Shown piece after piece: positions 1,376-11,106 of a DNA stretch of 11,106 nucleotides. This stretch comes from Caldilineaceae bacterium (GTDB lineage: Bacteria > Chloroflexota > Anaerolineae > Caldilineales > Caldilineaceae): NCBI GenBank assembly GCA_015494005.1, contig WGCB01000449.1, forward strand, positions 1 to 11,106. The letters are read 5' to 3'. The notes beneath the pieces were generated by a model. That model did not search any database and was not told the DNA's origin. It worked only from the letters and a program-made list of their open reading frames with translations. Both the position numbers and the translations under genes were made by a program. How positions within the stretch are numbered: the stretch's first letter is position 1; each line of letters starts with the position of its first letter.

Positions 1376-1416
1376 CAGCTCCTCAACTTCTACCTCCCAG
1401 CTCCCAACTTCTCCTC
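1376..1416. repeat. Pyrimidine-rich direct repeat overlapping the 3' end of trmFO
   Basis: Two near-identical units are spaced 22 bp apart: CAGCTCCTCAACTTCT (1376-1391) and CAGCTCCCAACTTCT (1398-1412). They resemble the CCAACTTC tracts in the trmFO and glycosyltransferase leaders. The trmFO stop codon (1390-1392) and roughly its last eight codons lie inside the repeat. Confidence 0.75.
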
Positions 1417-2760
1417 AGAGAACACCGACTCGAACCCCATCTCTTCCAGGTAGCGTTCCAGATCCTGGTGGGCCCGCTGCGCGTAGGCCGCGTAGCGTTG
1501 GCGCTTGTTCCGCACCCGGGGACGCAGCTCGGGCAGGAGGCCCATGTTGGCCTTCATGGGCTGGAACTCCTCCGGCTCCGCGTGGGTGATGTAGTGGAGC
1601 AGCGCGCCGGTCATGGTGGTCCGGGGCAGGGTGAGCAGAGGCTCTCCCCGGAGCAGGCGCACCAGGTTGATCCCGGCCACCAGCCCGCCCATGGTGCTGC
1701 CCACGTACCCCTCTGTGCCAGTGATCTGCCCGGCGAAGAAGAGGTCCGCCCGCTCCCGGAACTGGAGGGTGGGGTGGAGCAGGGTCGGGCTGTTGATGAA
1801 GGTGTTGCGGTGCATCTGGCCCAGGCGCACGAACTCCGCCTGCTGCAGGCCCGGGATCATGCGCAGGATCTCCTTCTGGGCCCCCCACTTGATGTTGGTC
1901 TGGAAGCCCACCAGGTTGTAGAGGGTGCCGGCCACGTTGTCCTGGCGCAGCTGCACCACCGCGTAGGGCCGCTTGCCCGTGCGGGGATCCCGCAGGCCCA
2001 CCGGTCGCATGGGGCCGTAGGCCAGGGCGTCCTTGCCCCGGCTGGCCAGCACCTCGATGGGCATGCACCCCTCGAAGTAGCGCTCCAGCTCCTTGTCCGC
2101 CCCCTTCAGCTCCATGCGGGGCGCGGCCAGGAGCGCCTCCACGAAGGCCTCGTACCCCTCCTTGTTCATGGGGCAGTTGATGTAGTCCCCGGCCCCGTCC
2201 CCCAGCGCACTGTCCCGGTCGTAGCGGCTCTGGCGGAAAGCGATGGACATGTCGATGCTCTCCGCGGTGACGATGGGCGCCATGGCGTCATAGAAGTAGA
2301 GGTAGCGCCCGGTCAGCTTCTGGAGCTCCCGGGTCAGCGCGTCGCTGGTCAGGGGGCCCGTGGCCACGATCACCGGCCCCTCTGGGATGCGGGTCACCTC
2401 CTCCCGGATCACCTGGATGTTGGGGTGCCCCTGGATGAGCCGGGTGACCTCCTCCGCGAAGTCCTCCCGGCTGACGGCCAGCGCGCCTCCGGCCGGCAAG
2501 GCGTGCTTGTAGGCCGTGCGGATGATCAGGCTGCCCATGCGCAGCATCTCGTTCTTCAGGATGCCCAGGGCCCGATCCGGCAGGGTGCTGCCCATGGAGT
2601 TGCTGCAGACCAGCTCCGCCAGCCGATCCGTGACATGGGCCGGGGTGGGGCGCTTGGGCCGCATCTCGTAGAGTGTGACATGAACACCTCGGTTGGCCGC
2701 CTGCCAGGCTGCTTCCGTCCCGGCCAGGCCCCCGCCGATGATGGTGATGGTTTCGGTCAT
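1390..2760 (-). CDS. trmFO: Methylenetetrahydrofolate--tRNA-(uracil-54-C5)-methyltransferase TrmFO
   Basis: A 456-residue flavoprotein that methylates U54 in the T-loop of tRNA to 5-methyluridine, using methylenetetrahydrofolate and FADH2, in the cytoplasm. The N-terminus has the FAD-binding Rossmann motif [13 protein letters not shown] (7-19) and the family block VCSNSMGS (51-58). Cys52 and Cys232 (in FEGCMPIE) match the two functional cysteines known from Bacillus TrmFO (Cys53 and Cys226). The C-terminal half has the typical [21 protein letters not shown] and [14 protein letters not shown] blocks. Length is normal for the family. The ATG at 2760 gives the canonical [11 protein letters not shown] start; a longer in-frame extension upstream is translated repeat and belongs to other features. 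No Shine-Dalgarno sequence is seen: the bases before the ATG read CCAAACCAACC. The last residues (EEKLGAGR) are encoded by a repeat. It is divergent from the phosphorylase gene and has its own strong promoter. Confidence 0.96.
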
Positions 2761-2810
2761 GGTTGGTTTGGGCTGTGGATTGGTTGCTTGGTTGATTCGT
2801 TGAATGGGAG
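2761..2810. repeat. G/T-rich GGTTGNTT-like repeat tract in the trmFO leader
   Basis: Degenerate octamers such as GGTTGGTT, GGTTGCTT, GGTTGATT and CGTTGAAT lie directly before the trmFO start codon (on the + strand as read). They carry GTTGG, the complement of the CCAAC core in the neighbouring array at 2822-2880, so the two tracts form an opposite-orientation pair. On the trmFO mRNA this is a C/A-rich stretch lacking a ribosome-binding site. Confidence 0.6.
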
Positions 2811-2821
2811 TCGTCGCATCG

Positions 2822-2880
2822 CCAACTTCCAACTCCCATCTTCCAACTTCTATCTTCCAACTTCTATCTTCCAACTCCCC
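2822..2880. repeat. 14-bp tandem repeat CCAACTTCTATCTT in the trmFO leader
   Basis: Units in phase are a half unit CCAACTT (2822-2828), CCAACTCCCATCTT (2829-2842), CCAACTTCTATCTT (2843-2856 and 2857-2870), and a final CCAACTCCCC (2871-2880). The array lies between the trmFO promoter and its start codon, so it is transcribed as a purine-rich leader on the minus strand. It has no stop codons in that frame, which is why a long spurious open frame runs through it. Confidence 0.9.
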
Positions 2881-2896
2881 TAAACGGCATCCAATC

Positions 2897-2925
2897 ATTG
2901 TAGCAAAGGGGGAGGGGGACGTCAA
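2897..2925 (-). promoter_or_regulatory. Sigma-70 promoter of trmFO
   Basis: On the minus strand, TTGACG (2925-2920) and TACAAT (2902-2897) are separated by 17 bp, close to consensus in both boxes. Transcription should start near 2890, giving a leader of about 130 nt that contains the two repeat tracts. Confidence 0.8.
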
Positions 2926-2961
2926 AAGAGGGGCGTGATTTCTATCAATCGGGTTTTGTTC

Positions 2962-2991
2962 TTGCCTCGGACCCCACTTTCGCGGTACGCT
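2962..2991 (+). promoter_or_regulatory. Probable promoter of the pyrimidine-nucleoside phosphorylase gene
   Basis: TTGCCT (2962-2967) and TACGCT (2986-2991) are separated by 18 bp, with an expected start near 2998 and a 42-nt leader. The boxes match consensus only partly. It is divergent from the trmFO promoter, with about 37 bp between the two -35 boxes. Confidence 0.5.
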
Positions 2992-3039
2992 TTCCCCAGC
3001 CAATCCGTTCCACCCCCGCCCCAGGAAAGGAGCTTTGCC

Positions 3040-4428
3040 ATGATCTCCACCAGCCCCAGCCTGAACCCGGTCCAGATCATCGTCAAGAAGCGCGACGGCG
3101 GCGAGCACACCCGGGAGGAGCTCCGCTACTTCATCAACGGCTTCGTCCAGGACCTGATCCCCGACTACCAGGTGGCCGCCTGGGCGATGGCCGTCTACTT
3201 CCAGGGCATGACCCCGCCAGAAACCACGGAGCTCACCCTGGCCATGGCCGAGAGCGGCGACATGCTGGACCCCCACCTGGGCCTGCCCCCGGGCACGGTC
3301 ATCGTGGACAAGCACTCCAGCGGCGGCGTGGGGGACAAGACCACCCTGGCCGTGGCGCCCATCGTGGCCGCCTGCGGCCTGCCCGTGGGCAAGATGAGTG
3401 GCCGGGGCCTGAGCTACACCGGCGGCACCATCGACAAGCTGGAGAGCATCGCCGGCTGGAGCCCAGAGCTCAGCGAGGAGCAGTTCCGCCGCCAGCTCCG
3501 GGAGATCGGCCTGGTGGTGGCCAGCCAGACCGCCAACCTGGCCCCCGCGGACAAGAAACTCTACGCCCTGCGGGACGTCACCGGCACCGTGCCCAGCCTG
3601 CCCCTCATCGCCAGCAGCATCATGAGCAAGAAGCTGGCCGCCGGCGCGGACGCCATCGTCCTGGACGTGAAGTGCGGCCGGGGCGCCTTCATGGAGACCC
3701 TGGAGGAGGCAGAGAAGCTGGCCCGCCTCATGGTGGCCATCGGCAGCCGGGCCGGCCGCCTCATGACCGCCCTCATCACCCAGATGGAGCAGCCCCTGGG
3801 CCGGGCCGTGGGCAACGCCCTGGAGGTCAAAGAGGCCATCGCCACCCTCCACGGCCAGGGCCCGGACGATTTCCAGACCCTGGTGGAGCAGGTGGCCGGC
3901 GAGATGCTCTGGCTGGGGAAACGAGCGGGGAGTTCCCAGGGTCAGGGCGTCGCCGCCCCGGTGGGAGAGGGGTCAACGGACTTGCCAGAGGAGTTCAAAA
4001 ACCAGGTGCGGGAGGCCATTCGCTCCGGCGCGGCCTTCCGCAAGTTCCGGGAGTTCGTGGCCGCCCAGGGCGGGGATGTGGCCATGGTGGACCAGCCAGA
4101 GAAGCTGCCCGCCGCGCCCCTGGTGGTGGACGTCACCGCGCCCCGAGCCGGCTTCGTGGCCTCCATCGACGCCCGGGAGGTGGGCCTCACCGTGGTGGAC
4201 CTGGGAGGCGGCCGCCACAAAAAGGGCGACCCCATCGACCACCGGGTGGGCGTGGTGGTCCAGGCCAAGGTGGGGGACCGAGTGGAGGCCGGCCAGCCCC
4301 TCTGCCAGGTCCACGCGGGGAACCAGGCCGGCGCGGACATGGCCGTGGCTCGCCTCCAGGCCGCCTACACCCTCAGCGACGAGCCTGTCCCGCCTCTGCC
4401 GGTGGTCTACGAACGGATTCGCGGCTGA
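3040..4428 (+). CDS. pdp: Pyrimidine-nucleoside (thymidine) phosphorylase
   Basis: A 462-residue cytoplasmic salvage enzyme that splits thymidine and/or uridine with phosphate into the free base and (deoxy)ribose-1-phosphate. The phosphate-binding loop [10 protein letters not shown] is at 91-100 and the family signature [16 protein letters not shown] at 120-135. Arg178, Ser193 and Lys197 have exactly the spacing of the substrate-binding Arg171, Ser186 and Lys190 of E. coli thymidine phosphorylase. [11 protein letters not shown] block (209-218) and a C-terminal PYNP domain (about 360-440) complete the fold. The ATG at 3040 has a strong ribosome site, AGGAAAGGAG, 7 nt upstream. It is slightly longer than the usual 430-440 residues because of about 20-25 extra residues near 294-318, whose codons are less G/C-biased. 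Whether it prefers uridine or thymidine cannot be read from sequence; deoA is an alternative name. Confidence 0.93.
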
Positions 4429-4439
4429 GATTCCGTGAC

Positions 4440-4472
4440 AGATTCCGGGAAACTTCAAGTTTCCCGGAATCT
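4440..4472. terminator. Perfect 16-bp inverted repeat between two convergent genes
   Basis: AGATTCCGGGAAACTT (4440-4455) and its exact complement AAGTTTCCCGGAATCT (4457-4472) are separated by a single base. It starts 11 nt after the phosphorylase stop and ends 4 nt before the glycosyltransferase stop, so it can serve both as a terminator. No U-tract follows on either strand, so it may act only as an RNA-end stabiliser or as a protein-binding palindrome. A copy of GATTCCG (4429-4435) precedes it. Confidence 0.6.
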
Positions 4473-4476
4473 ATGG

Positions 4477-5682
4477 CTACCACTGGACCAATTGCCGCTC
4501 GGCCACCACCTCCCGGTAGACGGCCAGGGTGGCCGCGGCGATGCGGTCCCAGCTGTACTGGGTCTCCACCTGCCAGCTGGCCCGCTCCCGGCGCCGGGCC
4601 GCGGCCTCCGGATCCTGGAAGAGATGATCCACGGCCCAGGCGATGCTCTCCGGATCGTCCGGGTAGACCGTGAGGCCGTTCTCCTGGTGGGTGATCACCT
4701 CGCCCAGTCCCCCCACATCACTGACGATCACGTTGGTTCCTGCCGCCATGGCCTCCAGCGCCACGATGCCGAAGGGCTCGTACAGGCTGGGGAAGATGGC
4801 CGCGTCCACGATGCGGTAGAGGGCGTTCCGCTCCTCGTCGCTGACGTAGCCCAGGAAGCGCACCCGGTCCGCCACCCCCAGCTCCTGGGCCAGAGGCAGG
4901 TAGCGCTCTCCGTTCCGGCCGGCGGCCAGCAGCACCGCGTCCGGGTACTTCTCCAAGATGCGAGGCATGGCCCGAATGATGTTCTGGATGCCCTTCTCGT
5001 GGGTCATGCGTCCCACGAAGAAGAGCAGGGGCTCCCCGTTGGGCGCGTGGAGGCGGCGCAGCCGGGCCAGGGTGGCCCCGTCGTGGTTGCGGAAGGGCGT
5101 CACGTCCACCCCGTTGGGGATGACCACGATCTTGTCCGCCGGGGCCTGGAAGAAGGCCTGGAGCTCCTGGGCCATGTAGCGGCTGCAGACGATGATCTTC
5201 CAGGCCTCGTAGCAGAGGCGCCACTCCATGCGGTCGATGTGGTAGCTGGTGCGGCTGGGCAGGTGACCCTGGTGGCGTCCCCGCTCCGTGGCGTGGATGG
5301 TGGGCACCAGCGGGGTTTTCCAGCGGTGCTTCAGGGCGATGCCCGCCTCCCCCACCAGCCAGTCGTGGATGTGGATCAGGTCGTAGGAATGCTCCTCACC
5401 CAGCTGGATGGCCTTCTCCATCAGGGGCTGGTTGGCCGCGATGACGCTGTTGTACATGTCCTGGGGATCCATGGGCGGTGTCTCCACCCGGTGGATCGCC
5501 ACCCGGTCCTGGAGGCGTTCCACGGCCTCGCCCCCGCCCAGGCGGGTGGTCACCAGATCCAGGTGGAAGGAAGCGTCCTGGGCGGCCTGGCGGGCCAGGG
5601 CCGGGGTGAGCTCGGCCACATGTTTGCCCATGCCACCGACGACGTACGGCGGATATTCCCATGTGAGCATCAATACACGCAC
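4477..5682 (-). CDS. GT4-family glycosyltransferase (glycogen-synthase-like)
   Basis: A 401-residue GT-B fold enzyme expected to transfer a sugar from a nucleotide-sugar donor. The N-terminal domain starts [20 protein letters not shown] (3-22), with the glycine loop GGMGKHV typical of glycogen synthase-like GT4/GT5 enzymes, then HIHDW (104-108) and [11 protein letters not shown] (130-140). The C-terminal domain has PNGVD (189-193), [11 protein letters not shown] (222-232) and the donor-binding EX7E motif EPFGIVALE, with Glu302 and Glu310. The GTG at 5682 is chosen because AAGGAG lies 6 nt upstream; a TTG 12 codons earlier would put that ribosome site inside the gene. Donor and acceptor are not determinable; alpha-glucan (glycogen) synthesis is the best guess. 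Transcribed alone on the minus strand behind a leader of about 150 nt. Confidence 0.88.
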
Positions 5683-5688
5683 GTTCGT

Positions 5689-5694
5689 CTCCTT
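5689..5694 (-). promoter_or_regulatory. Ribosome-binding site fixing the GTG start of the glycosyltransferase
   Basis: AAGGAG on the minus strand is followed by 6 nt and then GTG at 5682. This spacing favours GTG over the upstream in-frame TTG (5718). Confidence 0.85.
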
Positions 5695-5730
5695 GTTGCT
5701 ACAATGTTGGTGCTGCAATGTTGCTGCGGC

Positions 5731-6043: not shown

Positions 6044-6074
6044 TTGACATTCAAGTAGCTTGATGGTTTAGACT
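6044..6074 (+). promoter_or_regulatory. MerR-type promoter/operator of the metal operon (19-bp spacer)
   Basis: A perfect -35 TTGACA (6044-6049) and TAGACT (6069-6074) are separated by 19 bp, longer than the 17 bp optimum. MerR-family activators act on such promoters by distorting the DNA. Inside the spacer is the dyad TCAAG-TAG-CTTGA (6051-6063). The outer parts (ATTCAAG and CTTGATG) look like a longer dyad with one base lost. The layout matches known MerR/SoxR-family sites. Transcription should start near 6081. Confidence 0.85.
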
Positions 6075-6116: not shown

Positions 6117-6182
6117 GTCACTTGACCTGAAAGCAGGACTTGAGAAAATGTGCAGAAGAAGCTGGGGAGAAAGGAGCGAGCG

Positions 6183-6605
6183 ATGCGCATCAGTGAACTG
6201 GCCCGGGCTGCAGGGGTGACGCCTCCCACCATCCGCTACTACGAGGCCATCGGCGTGCTGCCCGCCCCGCCCCGGGCTGCCAACGGCTACCGGCACTACG
6301 GCCCGGGGGACCTGGAGCGCCTGCGCTTCGTGACCCGAGCCCGGGCCCTGGACTTCAGCCTGGACGAGATCCGGGAGGTCCTGGCCTTCCGGGAGCGGGG
6401 CGAGGCGCCCTGCCGCTACGTGCTGGAGCAGATTCGGGCCAAGATCGCCGAGATCGACCGGCGCATGGCCGCGCTGGCCCAGCTCAAGCAGGAGCTGGAG
6501 CAGATCCAGGCCGAGACGGCCCATCTGCTCCCCGAGAGCCCGGCGGTCGAGGAGGGTTGCGTCTGCCACCTCATCCAGGCGGCCCCGGTATCCGCCGGTG
6601 AGTGA
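6183..6605 (+). CDS. MerR-family metal-responsive transcriptional regulator
   Basis: A 140-residue activator/repressor. Residues 1-68 are the winged helix-turn-helix DNA-binding domain (MRISELARAAGVTPPTIRYYE, then GYRHYG and LRFVTRARALDFSLDEI). Residues 79-113 form the long dimerisation coiled coil. Cys77 starts this helix and Cys126 and Cys128 lie near the C-terminus. In characterised family members, a Cys at this first position (MerR Cys82, ZntR Cys79) goes with Hg, Zn, Cd or Pb sensing, whereas CueR has Ser77. The ATG at 6183 is preceded by AAGGAG at 6 nt; an upstream in-frame GTG at 6150 has no such site and would add residues before the conserved start. First gene of the operon, behind the MerR-type promoter, hence probably self-regulating. 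Metal identity is inferred and uncertain. Confidence 0.9.
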   Translation: MRISELARAAGVTPPTIRYYEAIGVLPAPPRAANGYRHYGPGDLERLRFVTRARALDFSLDEIREVLAFRERGEAPCRYVLEQIRAKIAEIDRRMAALAQLKQELEQIQAETAHLLPESPAVEEGCVCHLIQAAPVSAGE

Positions 6606-6668: not shown

Positions 6669-6902
6669 ATGAACATCGAGACCCGGGTGTTCAAAGTGGT
6701 GGGCAAGCAGAAACTCCACTGCGCCAGCTGCGAGAAGAGCGTGCGTTTCCTCCTGCAGCAGCTGCCGGGCGTCCAGCGGGTGGACGCCAGCCACAAGACC
6801 CAGGAGATCCGCCTGGTCATCGACGCCCAGCGCCTGGATCTGGGCCAGGTGACCCAGCAGCTGGACTGGCTCGGCTACGAGGTGACGGAGGTCACCGCCT
6901 GA
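6669..6902 (+). CDS. Small heavy-metal-associated (HMA) domain protein, CopZ-like chaperone
   Basis: A 77-residue single-domain protein with the ferredoxin-like HMA fold, expected to bind a soft metal ion in the cytoplasm and pass it to the ATPase. The metal site is Cys18-Ala-Ser-Cys21 in KLHCASCEKSV; a typical helix, the PGVQRVDAS loop and the closing GYEV (69-72) follow. The usual GMxCxxC is changed: Leu16 replaces Met and His17 lies before the first Cys. A GGAAGGGGAA ribosome site precedes the ATG. It lies 63 nt after merR and 60 nt before the CcdA-like gene, in one operon. A mercury-type binding protein is an alternative to a copper chaperone. Confidence 0.88.
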   Translation: MNIETRVFKVVGKQKLHCASCEKSVRFLLQQLPGVQRVDASHKTQEIRLVIDAQRLDLGQVTQQLDWLGYEVTEVTA

Positions 6903-7739: not shown

Positions 7740-9971
7740 GTGACTGTCGATAAACTGCAAGTCAAAGTCGGGGGCATGAGCTGCTCCTTCTGCACCGCCA
7801 CCATCGAGCGAGCCCTGGGCCGCATGGATGGGGTGGCCGCGGTCCACGTGAGCCTGGCCCACGAGGAAGCCCTCATCCAGTACGACCCCAGCAAGCGCCA
7901 GCCCGAGGAGCTGATGGAGACCCTGCGCAGCCTGGGCTACACCATCCGGGACCCGGACAAGGTGCGGGCCTACGAGGAGCAGGAGGAGGAGCTGGCCCGG
8001 GAGAAACAGCGCCTCCTCCTGGCTGGGGTCTTCACCGGCATGGCGGCCCTGCTCATGCTGGCCATGTGGCTGGGCATCCGCCGCCCCTGGTTCAAGTGGA
8101 TCATGATGAGCCTGGCCCTGGCCACGGTCTTCGGCCCAGGCTGGTACATCCTCTCCATGGCCTTCCACTCCCTGCGTCGGCGCATCCTCAACCAGCACGT
8201 CCTCCTGGAGCTGGGGGCCTTCGCCGGGCTGCTGGGAGGCTTCATCGGCCTGGCGGGCCAGCTCCTGGACAACCCCATCCTGGCCCGTTTCCCCGTGCCC
8301 GATTTCTTCGGTGTGGCGGTCTTCATCACCAGCTACCACATCCTCTCCGGCTACACCTCTCTCCTGGTGCGGACCCGGGCCTCCCAGGCCGTGCGCCGCC
8401 TCCTGGATCTGCAGCCGGCCGTGGCCCGGGTGATCCGGGACGGCCAGGAGGTGGAGGTGCCCATCGAAGAGGTCCAGCCCGGGGACCAGGTGCGGGTGCG
8501 CCCAGGGGAGAGCATCCCCGTGGACGGGGTGGTGACCGAGGGCGCCTCCAGCGTGGACGAGAGCATCGTCACCGGGGAGTCCCTGCCTGTGGAGAAGGAG
8601 CCAGGCAGCCCGGTCATCGGCGGCTCCATCAACCAGTCTGGCAGCCTGGTGGTGGAGGTGACCCAGGTGGGGGAGGAGAGCTTCCTGCAGCAGGTGGCCC
8701 GCTACATCGAGGAGGCTCGGGCCATGAAGCCAGGCATCATGCAGCTGGTGGACCTGGTGCTCAAATACTACGTGCCCGGGGTCATCCTCTTCGCCGGGGC
8801 CGGCCTGCTCATCTGGACCCTGGGCAGCTGGCTGGTGACGGGCCAGATGGACGTGAGCCGAGCCATCTTCGCGGGCCTGGCCGTCTTCGTCATGGGCTAC
8901 CCCTGCGCCCTGGGTATGGCCACGCCCCTGGCCCTCATCCGGGGCGGGGGCGAAGCGGCCCGCAAGGGCATCCTCCTCCGCTCTGGCGAGGCCTTCCAGG
9001 TGTTGAAGGAGATCGACCAGGTCCTTTTCGACAAGACCGGCACCCTCACCGTGGGCAAACCCCAGGTGGTGGACCTGGTCCCGGTGGAGGGCGTCCCCTC
9101 CCAGGAGCTCCTGGCCCTGGCCGCCGGGGTGGAGTTCCCCTCGGAGCATCCCCTGGGCCGGGCTGTGGTGGACCGGGCCCTGGCGGACGGCGTGATGCCC
9201 CCCTCCGTCTCCGACTTCCAGGCCATCCCCGGCAAGGGCATCCGAGCCCAGGTGGAAGGGCGGTCCGCCCTGGTGGGCAGCCTGCGTTTCCTGGCCGAGG
9301 AAGGGGTGGAGCTGGCGCCCGTCCAGGAGCGGGTGCGCTCCCTGGAGGAGACGGGCAAGACCGTGGTGGGCGTGGCCCGGGACAGTCGCCTCCTGGGCAT
9401 CCTGGCCATCGCCGACACCCTGAAGCCCGACGCGGCCGAGGCCGTGAGCCAGCTCCGGGCCCTGGGCATCGAGCCGGTGCTCATCACCGGGGACAACTGG
9501 GCCACCGCCCGGGCCGTGGCCGCCAGCGTGGGCATCCAGGACGTGATGGCCCAAGTGCTGCCTGGGGAGAAGGCCGAGGCCGTGCGGGAGCGGCAGGCCC
9601 AGGGGCGCCGGGTGGCCATGGTGGGGGATGGCATCAACGACGCGCCGGCCCTCATGCAGGCGGACATCGGCATCGCCATCGGGGCTGGCACGGACATCGC
9701 CATCGAGTCCTCGGACATCGTGCTGGTGGGGGAGCGCCTCACCGCGGTGGTGGATGCCTACCACATCGGCCGCCGCTCCTACCGCAAGACCGTCCAGAAC
9801 CTGGTCCTGGCCTTCGCCTTCAACGGCATCGGCGTGCCTCTGGCCGTCACCGGGCTGGTGCACCCGGTCTGGGCCATGATCGCCATGGCCGCCAGCGTCA
9901 GCACCGTGCTCCTGAACTCCTTCGCCGGGCAGCTGCTGCCGGCCGTGAGGCCCGGGGCCGATGAACGGTAG
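7740..9971 (+). CDS. P1B-type heavy-metal translocating ATPase with atypical YPC motif
   Basis: A 743-residue ATP-driven membrane pump. Residues 5-70 are an N-terminal HMA domain with GMSCSFC (Cys15, Cys18). About eight transmembrane helices follow (near 93-112, 117-140, 155-173, 187-207, 345-365, 374-395, 685-705, 708-727). Catalytic blocks are complete: TGES (278-281), DKTGT with the phosphorylated Asp431, SEHP (468-471) and GDGIND (629-634). The ion-path motif in TM6 is Tyr387-Pro388-Cys389 instead of the copper type CPC. In TM7 the YN pair is Phe694-Asn695, and in TM8 the MxxSS pattern reads Met716-Ala-Ala-Ser719-Val720. These changes argue against ordinary Cu(I) specificity, so no copA symbol is given. 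The start is GTG with GGAGG 8 nt upstream. It is the last gene of the operon, 111 nt after the CcdA-like gene, and its stop codon lies in an inverted repeat. Confidence 0.93.
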
Positions 9972-10040: not shown

Positions 10041-10128
10041 AATTTCCCATCCTCCTCTCGCCGTTCCCCGCTGGTCCACTCCTCATCCGAAAAAACCTCC
10101 GATTCTGTTTCGCGCCTGGGCCGCGTTA

Positions 10129-10137
10129 TGGTAAAAT
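10129..10137 (+). promoter_or_regulatory. Extended -10 promoter of the tyrosine recombinase gene
   Basis: TGG-TAAAAT forms an extended -10 (TGn at 10129-10131, hexamer at 10132-10137). The -35 region is poor (TTCGCG near 10109). Predicted start near 10144 gives a leader of about 35 nt. Confidence 0.6.
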
Positions 10138-10178
10138 TCTCTGTTGTCTACGCCAACGCGCCACCTGGAGAGAACAGA

Positions 10179-11106
10179 ATGCGGCAAGAGGTGACTCGCT
10201 TCCTGGAGTACCTGCTGGAGGAAAAAACCAAGAACACGGCCGCGGCCTACCGGAACGATCTCAACCAGTTTCTGACGTTCCTGGGCTCCTACCTGCGGCC
10301 GGACGGCGTCTCCATCCAGGACTGGAACCAGGTGGACGAGATGGTGATCCAGGAGTACCTCTTCTACCTGAAGGGCAAGGAGTACGCCCCCTCCACCGTG
10401 GCCCGGAAGATCGCCTCGGTGAAGAGCTTCTTCCAGTTCCTCCAGCAGCAGGGACGCATCGCCCTGGACCCCACGGCCAGGCTGGTCTCTCCCAAGGTGA
10501 AGAAGAACCAGCCCCACACCATCGATCCCGCCCAGGTGGACCAGCTGCTGGCGGCTCCCACCCGGGAAGAGACCCCCAAGGCCATCCGGGACAAGGCGCT
10601 CCTGGAGCTGCTCTACGCCACGGGCATGCGGGTGACGGAGCTAGTGAACCTGGACGTGGATGACGTGGACCTGGCCAACGCCACGGTCACCTGCGGCACG
10701 GACGCCAAGCACAAGCGCACCGTCCCCATCTACCCGGACGCGGTCCGGGCCCTGGAGCGCTACCTGGGGGAGAGCCGTCCCCGCCTGGCCGCCAAGAACC
10801 CGGAGGAGCGGGCCCTCTTCCTCAACCACCGGGGCCGGCGGCTGACCCGCCAGGGGCTCTGGCTCATCATCAAGGAGTACGTGAACCAGGTGGGCATCGA
10901 GGGCCATGTGACGCCCCATACCCTGCGCCACAGCTTCGCCACCCACCTGCTCCGGGCCGGCGCGGGCCTCAAGGAGGTCCAGGCCCGGCTGGGCCACGCC
11001 AGCCCTACCACCACCCAGGTCTACCAGCGGGCCTCCCACACTCCCACCAGCGAGCTGATCATCGACGGGGAGCCGGTGGAGCCTTCCCCTGGGACGGCCC
11101 TGCCCC
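10179..11106 (+). CDS. XerC/XerD-type tyrosine recombinase (3' end beyond the window)
   Basis: At least 309 residues with no stop before the window edge. Residues 1-95 are the N-terminal SAM-like DNA-binding core (RFLEYLLEEKTKNTAAAYRN and the STVARKIASVKSFFQFL helix); residues 113-290 are the catalytic domain. Catalytic residues visible are Arg151 (ATGMRVTEL), a lysine in the hairpin GTDAKHKRTVPI (Lys177 most likely), His247 and Arg250 (HTLRHSF), His273 (LGHAS) and the nucleophile Tyr282 (TTTQVYQRAS). Such enzymes resolve chromosome dimers at dif or move integrative elements. The ATG at 10179 has GGAGAG 6 nt upstream and its own promoter. The lysine hairpin differs from the usual GKGxK. Length past Tyr282 is at least 27 residues, so a tail beyond the usual end is possible. 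A Xer housekeeping role and an integrase role cannot be separated here. Confidence 0.9.
   Translation, partial: MRQEVTRFLEYLLEEKTKNTAAAYRNDLNQFLTFLGSYLRPDGVSIQDWNQVDEMVIQEYLFYLKGKEYAPSTVARKIASVKSFFQFLQQQGRIALDPTARLVSPKVKKNQPHTIDPAQVDQLLAAPTREETPKAIRDKALLELLYATGMRVTELVNLDVDDVDLANATVTCGTDAKHKRTVPIYPDAVRALERYLGESRPRLAAKNPEERALFLNHRGRRLTRQGLWLIIKEYVNQVGIEGHVTPHTLRHSFATHLLRAGAGLKEVQARLGHASPTTTQVYQRASHTPTSELIIDGEPVEPSPGTALP

Follow-up and report, generated by a model that had tools for sequence, protein, structure and literature searches.

The pump considered here is encoded in a stretch of 11,106 nucleotides (the window) from a Caldilineaceae bacterium (contig WGCB01000449.1) and is a P1B-type metal-transporting ATPase in which the sixth transmembrane helix (TM6) presents Tyr-Pro-Cys (YPC) rather than the Cys-Pro-Cys (CPC) of copper pumps. 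YPC pumps almost certainly form a distinct clade with an altered metal site. The reading we favor for the surrounding gene cluster, at a probability of about 0.45, is that it forms a soft-metal efflux unit under MerR control, with a pump from a large, uncharacterized P1B clade that is descended from the copper-pump lineage and has a rebuilt ion path. The pump gene and the elements of its metal site are as follows, with residues numbered on the protein.

7740..9971, plus strand: YPC-type P1B ATPase, 743 residues, GTG start; Pfam PF00122, PF00702, and PF00403
Residues 8-68 of the pump, plus strand: N-terminal HMA domain, with MSCSFC
8190..8201, plus strand: ion entry region N151-Q152-H153-V154, mostly N-M-D in CPC pumps
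8898..8906, plus strand: TM6 site Y387-P388-C389
9816..9827, plus strand: TM7 A693-F694-N695-G696, Y-N in CPC pumps
9876..9902, plus strand: TM8 M713-I-A-M716-A-A-S719-V720-S721, with an extra Met713 and with Val replacing the second Ser

The protein has the hallmarks of a P1B ATPase, namely a HAD ATPase domain with DKTGT, TGES, and GDGxND, the HP of the N-domain, and the Pro-Cys of TM6. A preliminary description of the locus had reported the YPC motif together with F694-N695 in TM7 and M716-A-A-S719-V720 in TM8, and had called the energy-coupling motifs intact, and the sequence agrees throughout: Y387-P388-C389 lies exactly at 8898-8906, and TGES (at 278), DKTGT (at 431), SEHP (at 468), and GDGIND (at 629) are all found. 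At the DNA level the window has a single match to the GYPCA pattern, against an expectation of 0.01. The models TIGR01525, TIGR01511, and TIGR01512 each score the pump above cut-off, the copper model TIGR01511 giving 467 bits with a cut-off of 397, and the best matches in the PDB are copper pumps. The residues that define the P1B-1 copper group are replaced, with YPC for CPC, FN for YN, and MxxSV for MxxSS.

In an alignment of 105 YPC rows with 18 CPC rows, the latter a small set drawn partly from Chloroflexota, residue 387 is Tyr in 105/105 YPC rows and Cys in 18/18 CPC rows, residue 694 is Phe in 104/105 and Tyr in 18/18, and residue 720 is Val in 99/105 and Ser in 18/18. C389, N695, and M716 are present in every row of both groups, and Ser719 in 104/105 and 18/18. 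Met713 is found in 105/105 YPC rows and in 0/18 CPC rows, which have Ala, Glu, or Gly there. At the ion entry, residue 152 is Gln in 105/105 (Met in 17/18 CPC rows), residue 153 is His in 99/105 (Asp in 13/18), and residue 207 is Ser in 96/105 (Glu in 15/18), while residue 338 is Asp in 93/105 YPC rows, with Glu in the rest, and Asp in 17/18 CPC rows. In the structure of L. pneumophila CopA, a Met, a Glu, and an Asp reportedly line the copper entry. The different ion site proposed in the preliminary description is supported by the 105 rows; overlooked there were the clade-wide Met713 and the changed ion entry, Q152-H153-S207 for M-D-E. Judged from the residues, a pattern in which a Cys is lost, a Met gained, and the entry altered with the ATPase machinery kept reads as retuning rather than decay.

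YPC was found in 198/198 proteins, that is, the query and 197 distinct homologs from two homology searches (the best 120 of 7,993 and the best 120 of 7,847 matches, with a mild bias from the dependence of these searches on shared 5-residue words); 197 of the 198 passed the automatic YPC test, and the remaining one reads GYPCS. A genome scan likewise gave YPC at 80/80 loci (78 YPCA and 2 YPCS), which were the best 80 of 562 and form a biased set because GYPCALGM was one of the two patterns of the scan. With 198/198 proteins and 80/80 loci, an isolated substitution or an assembly error, for which no support was found, has a negligible probability. The titles of the YPC loci name Chloroflexi, Proteobacteria, Methylomirabilota, Actinomycetes, a Bacillaceae strain, and Thermaceae, as well as haloarchaea, Methanoperedens, Thorarchaeota, Heimdallarchaeota, and others, and database names of clade members, where given, are those of general heavy-metal or Cu+ pumps. 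GYPCS replaces GYPCA in three pumps (L075 7233-9773, L081 57-2522, and P0189), and a sub-clade with GYPCAVGISAP or similar comprises L066, L073, L078, and other mostly proteobacterial loci, some members having a gene for an MFS transporter after the pump.

All 105 YPC rows in a tree of 133 rows group together as one clade (SH-aLRT 100, stem 0.62); two pairs of these rows are identical in the core, and left out were L014 (the same as L043), the partial L019, L020, L115, L116, L118, and L121, and the YPCS loci L075 and L081. A second tree of 41 rows, made without the site columns and omitting three long rows (pSymA_1300k, Nia, and G000_C429), again places its 21 YPC rows in one clade (100/100) and splits a P1B-1/P1B-3/YPC group from P1B-2/P1B-4 at 100/99, with YPC joined to two Chloroflexota CPC pumps at 88/88, which is below the confidence mark. 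From this placement the clade appears to be descended from the copper-pump lineage, and to be old, and it probably branches from inside P1B-1; since it is nested in the P1B-1/P1B-3 lineage, it looks like a derived copper-pump branch and not an independent lineage. The distinct subfamily suggested in the preliminary description therefore stands as a single clade but not as an independent lineage, and the tree, run as a check, gave no sign of YPC as an isolated change inside the CPC copper clade. Membership in the other groups was rejected on residues, with the tree in agreement: the pump has no CPC and no TM7 Lys or TM8 Asp (P1B-2), no CPH in TM6 (P1B-3), and no SPC or TPC in TM6 (P1B-4 and P1B-5). 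In PMC7558416 and PMC4932525, P1B-6 is listed with Fe(II) and P1B-7 is given as unknown. Further pumps of the window genome are two that carry every P1B-1 motif (C429 and the partial C153), one with CPH, two with SPC, and one with APC, and a CPC pump is present too in at least 51 of 64 YPC genomes.

The pump gene is preceded by three genes, and the four run in the same direction with 60-111 bases between them.

6044..6074, plus strand: MerR-type promoter-operator, TTGACA, a 19-bp spacer with the dyad TCAAG-TAG-CTTGA, and TAGACT, upstream of the merR gene
6150..6605, plus strand: MerR-family metal sensor, by Pfam MerR_1/MerR-DNA-bind and PDB alignments, with a C-terminal CxCH
6669..6902, plus strand: 77-residue HMA (CxxC) protein, PF00403
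6963..7628, plus strand: CcdA/DsbD-like membrane protein, 221 residues, PF02683 and PF13386

The MerR-family sensor likely starts at the ATG at 6183, which lies behind AAGGAG, and its Cys88 in the long open reading frame, which is Cys77 when counted from the likely start, is matched in alignments by a Cys in 4ua1, 5gpe, and CadR (6jyw), of which we take the first to be Bacillus MerR and the second PbrR. Sensors of this family have at the N-terminus of the dimer helix a Cys when they respond to divalent metals and a Ser when they respond to Cu(I); at this position E. coli CueR has Ser, and ZntR, the CadR/PbrR of pMOL30, and a Tn MerR have Cys, as does the window sensor, which places it with the divalent type. 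It scores 97 bits with the MerR model and 96 bits with the CadR-PbrR model, both below their cut-offs. The site at 6044-6074 is the sole one of its kind in the window, with 0 in 200 mononucleotide shuffles, and its layout, which the E. coli copA and zntA promoters share, recurs in 8 of 12 YPC relative loci scanned (L013, L018, L022, L050, L058, L063, L083, and L122) and is absent from the other four (L019, L045, L080, and L113). The 77-residue HMA protein is the counterpart of the HMA domain that relatives carry fused to the C-terminus of the pump: it resembles the C-terminal HMA of a fused relative, P0005 (41% over 69 residues, E 4e-18), and matches the N-terminal HMA of that protein far more weakly (E 0.017); a CxxC of the HMA kind lies within the last 110 residues of 166/198 proteins. 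Cys23 (TPC) and Cys135 (ACVGP) are the sole cysteines of the CcdA-like protein, which thus has the thiol-relay pair of the CcdA type, made up of TPC and ACxGP with one Cys in each of two transmembrane helices.

The neighborhoods of 64 YPC loci were compared over 5 kb on either side with those of 51 CPC paralogue loci from the same genomes, with mean flanks of 8.9 and 8.4 kb. The YPC loci were drawn from the 80 of the genome scan (L075 and 15 others lie outside the set), and the controls are one non-YPC paralogue per genome, of which 56 were taken and five dropped, L199 for a YPC gene within 5 kb and L210, L213, L231, and L235 for the lack of a recognized CPC motif. In a group of 39 of the genomes, G186 and G205, with YPC genes close by, gave no control region, and G175, G178, G179, G184, G206, and G207 had no other match at E 1e-80. 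Greedy gene calling, which mislabels high-GC loci, served for leads only. In the comparison, where the p-values overstate because the loci are not independent and where many neighbor queries, the CsoR query included, came from YPC loci and so favor matches there, a MerR-family regulator is near 35/64 YPC and 10/51 CPC loci, with Cys at the divalent position in 30/64 versus 2/51 (p 1.4e-7), Ser in 2/64 versus 5/51, and other residues in 8/64 versus 4/51. MerA with the C-terminal CC pair is found at 15/64 YPC versus 1/51 CPC loci (p 0.0008), the one CPC locus concerned (L181, Methanoperedens) being on the contig of its own YPC gene; MerA-like proteins lacking the pair, which were not counted as MerA, occur at 5/64 versus 1/51. 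CcdA (23/64 versus 2/51, p 2e-5) and small HMA proteins (44/64 versus 14/51, p 1e-5) are enriched as well, MerT is at 7/64 versus 1/51 (p 0.075), and an MFS gene is near 10/64 versus 1/51. CsoR-family matches, by contrast, are depleted (1/64 versus 14/51, p 3.6e-5). On the YPC tree the MerA trait requires at least nine changes (63 scored rows), and MerA is therefore not one inherited block.

The association with MerA was also followed through whole genomes. In the 64 genomes, MerA lies within 5.0 kb of 17/75 YPC genes versus 3 of about 220 other P1B matches (p 1e-8), where MerA calls are those above the NCBIfam cut-off, YPC genes are matches with at least 50% identity, and the others are all remaining matches counted, some of them fragments and the weakest few outside the MerA check. 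MerA is above cut-off in 43/64 YPC genomes and MerB in 20/64. Because these genomes had been chosen for YPC, a sample drawn by kinship was used too: among 150 relatives, the window genome included, MerA is present in 6 of 11 genomes with a YPC pump (a match of at least 50% identity, among the matches listed) versus 10 of 139 without one (p 0.0002), and in G096 the MerA and YPC genes are 1.6 kb apart. Seven annotated plasmid copies are all YPC. Those on Haloarcula pNG600 and in Halobacterium sp. BOL4-2 adjoin merA, and those in C. metallidurans Ni-2 and Cytobacillus adjoin mer genes, the latter with arsenic genes alongside too; MerT, thioredoxin, CcdA, and arsenic genes are near the Nitrobacter copy.

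A YPC pump has been placed in a host at least once. According to PMC11082258, the metagenomic CopAL6, which has YPC and is flanked by an HMA domain on either end, failed to rescue E. coli ΔcopA; it lowered the Cu resistance of this host and slowed its growth, and its cells had the highest Cu content, 534.5 µg/g, among the copA-like genes measured. CopAL6 is likely a member of the YPC clade. The preliminary description gave CPC, CPH, SPC, and TPC as the motifs of characterized P1B pumps; YPC is in the literature as well (PMC11082258 and PMC4541151). A literature search on YPC under P1B terms found nothing, and one under CopA/ATPase terms gave CopAL6 and the S. solfataricus CopA discussed below; in the accessible text of PMC5552934, 181 Cu-ATPases of 53 Rhizobiales genomes are tabulated as CPC, CPH, and CPD, with YPC unmentioned there. 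Literature joining mer and P-type ATPases gave no dedicated mercury P1B pump by title or start of abstract among the matches listed. Halobacterium YvgX was set aside as a tested YPC pump, as no TM6 sequence is given in the accessible portions of PMC3551603.

From its residues and the neighbors of its relatives, the pump is best read as exporting mercury or some comparable soft metal. It is quite likely not a routine Cu(I) exporter, because the CsoR family is near absent from YPC loci, divalent-type sensors are common there, CopAL6 failed, and at least 51 of the 64 genomes also have a CPC pump. The preliminary description had left the metal unassigned, and it stays so, but the gene context in relatives points to mercury; that a mercury species is the cargo is a tentative proposal resting on this association, which we put at slightly under even odds. 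In the cluster, a metal would bind the MerR sensor through Cys77 and the C-terminal cysteines, which would open the promoter at 6044, and the four genes would be cotranscribed. The HMA proteins may then act as chaperones that pass the metal to the pump, with the CcdA-like protein supplying reducing power to the thiols en route. The metal would enter past Q152 and H153 rather than Met and Asp, might be held by the thiolate of C389 and the thioethers of M713 and M716, with N695 and S719 and the aromatic Y387 and F694 around it, and would be expelled through ordinary phosphorylation at D431. Hg(II) usually takes two thiolates, and the cargo could be either thiol-bound Hg(II) or organomercury; the latter, R-Hg+, would suit a site with one Cys since it should need one thiolate only. 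Somewhat more doubtful is the broader proposal that the clade, as a subfamily widespread in bacteria and archaea and of copper-pump descent, exports mercury species, with or without MerA, through a single-thiolate, double-thioether site suited to R-Hg+ or thiol-bound Hg(II). If the link to mercury is true, ATP-driven efflux would join mercury resistance as a detoxification arm that could accompany MerA or work in its absence, the case in the window genome, and the clade would be a natural experiment in the retuning of a copper site. The metal residues of TM6-TM8 are the basis on which P1B pumps are classified, and this clade alters several canonical ligand positions throughout and gains a Met.

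A number of points weigh against a mercury exporter, beyond the dependence among loci and the origin of the queries given above. Apart from its MerR-family regulator the window has no mer genes (MerA, MerT, and MerB were not found), and MerA above cut-off was found neither in the window genome, whose assembly is 88% complete, nor in four other YPC carriers among the 150 relatives; the MerA-negative carriers include G001, G012, and G013, of the same family as the window genome. A single invariant transmembrane cysteine is odd for Hg(II). ArsC is near 4/64 YPC versus 0/51 CPC loci (p 0.13), and some YPC genes are on plasmids, where resistance genes of different metals gather. The Leisingera plasmid copy is accompanied by MerR-family regulator and CcdA genes, and the Deinococcus copy adjoins a four-helix copper-binding protein and, apart from a MerR-family-like heavy-metal regulator, has no mer genes beside it; such a four-helix protein adjoins 2/90 YPC loci, the Deinococcus copy being one. 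The operator half-sites in several relatives (TTCCAG..CTGGAA) are similar to the E. coli copA promoter. According to PMC4541151, YPC is also the motif of S. solfataricus CopA, for which Cu resistance is verified, so Tyr alone may not exclude Cu(I). The pattern YPCALGxA[ST]P gave two matches in 398 Thermoproteota genomes, each of them of the GMA type; S. metallicus CopA1/2 reportedly read CPCALGLA.

One rival reading is a Cu(I)/Ag(I) pump whose site is unusual, the two TM8 Met and Cys389 taking the place of the CPC pair, perhaps in the service of low-affinity efflux or cuproprotein loading. Its P1B-1/3 ancestry, the TIGR01511 score, and the copper pumps among its best PDB matches fit this explanation, as does the suitability of thioether-rich sites for Cu(I), and the four-helix neighbor and the altered Cu content of CopAL6 hosts (PMC11082258) can be added. 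It is the ancestry, the S. solfataricus statement (PMC4541151), and the copA-like half-sites that keep it alive. We nevertheless consider it unlikely, in view of CsoR-family matches at 1/64 YPC versus 14/51 CPC loci, of MerR neighbors that are of the Ser type in 2/64 versus 5/51 and of the Cys type in 30/64 versus 2/51, of the replaced M, D, and E entry residues, of the CPC pump held by at least 51/64 YPC genomes, and of the failure of CopAL6 to restore Cu resistance. If YPC pumps do still move copper, the CPC pair would be dispensable and a textbook rule corrected.

It is rather improbable that the pump serves a different soft metal or metalloid (Cd, Pb, Au, or As compounds) and is near mer genes only through shared resistance islands. 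The Cd-family model TIGR01512 does score above cut-off, the window MerR fits the MerR and CadR-PbrR models alike, and arsenic genes recur, with ArsC at four loci and others by the Nitrobacter and Cytobacillus copies, but the pump has neither the Lys in TM7 nor the Asp in TM8 that ZntA/PbrA have, and other P1B matches in the same genomes are near MerA far more rarely (3 of about 220). Much less probable again is an importer, a metal-loading pump, or a metal-binding protein without export. We know of no firmly established P1B importer, and the energy-coupling motifs of the pump are all intact. The high Cu content and poor growth of CopAL6 cells (PMC11082258) would agree with import, but that assay probably cannot separate it from membrane stress or from the binding of metal to extra HMA domains.

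Compared with the P1B-1 Cu(I)/Ag(I) ATPases (E. coli CopA, SilP, pMOL30 CopF, the copper pump 3j09, and ATP7B, 7xuk), the YPC pump has the same domain order, with an N-terminal HMA, and shares the TM6 Pro-Cys, the TM7 Asn, the TM8 Met and first Ser, the catalytic motifs, and the lineage; it differs in having Tyr for the first TM6 Cys, Phe for the TM7 Tyr, Val for the second TM8 Ser, the extra Met713, and Q-H-S instead of M-D-E as entry residues, and YPC pumps often have a second HMA, C-terminal or as a separate gene. The names CopF and PbrA are those we presume for the pMOL30 pumps. CopAL6 shares YPC in TM6, but has its second HMA fused where the window has a separate gene. The P1B-2 Zn/Cd/Pb ATPases (E. 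coli ZntA and pMOL30 PbrA) resemble the window system in their control by a MerR of the divalent type, but they have CPC, a TM7 Lys, and a TM8 Asp, none of which is in the window pump, and lie outside the P1B-1/3/YPC group. With mer operons (MerR, MerT, MerP, and MerA) the window shares the MerR-type sensor and promoter and an HMA protein, but no MerA, MerT, or MerB was found in it, mer genes adjoin a minority of YPC loci (MerA at 15/64), and P1B pumps are, to our knowledge, not part of the classical mer operon.

Some further neighbors of YPC pumps may be recorded. One recurrent protein family (L113 7408-7950 and ten loci in a single-linkage cluster) was scanned through a single member, which is DUF7482, of unknown function. 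On the Leisingera plasmid, a 507-residue protein with no Pfam match (L124 6443-7966) lies between CcdA and the YPC pump, and genes similar to it are near 2/64 YPC loci. Methyltransferases resembling arsenite methyltransferase are near some YPC pumps (L085 3542-4612 and three other loci of one cluster), the L085 protein being the one scanned. In the window itself, a tyrosine recombinase with a Phage_integrase domain, XerC/XerD-like by its look, begins about 155 bases past the pump gene and is cut short by the end of the window (10128-11105). Upstream, the region 1390-5718 holds a GidA-family (TrmFO-like) gene on the minus strand followed by others, including a GT4-type glycosyltransferase gene, also on the minus strand, and a plus-strand gene whose signature we take to be that of a pyrimidine-nucleoside phosphorylase.

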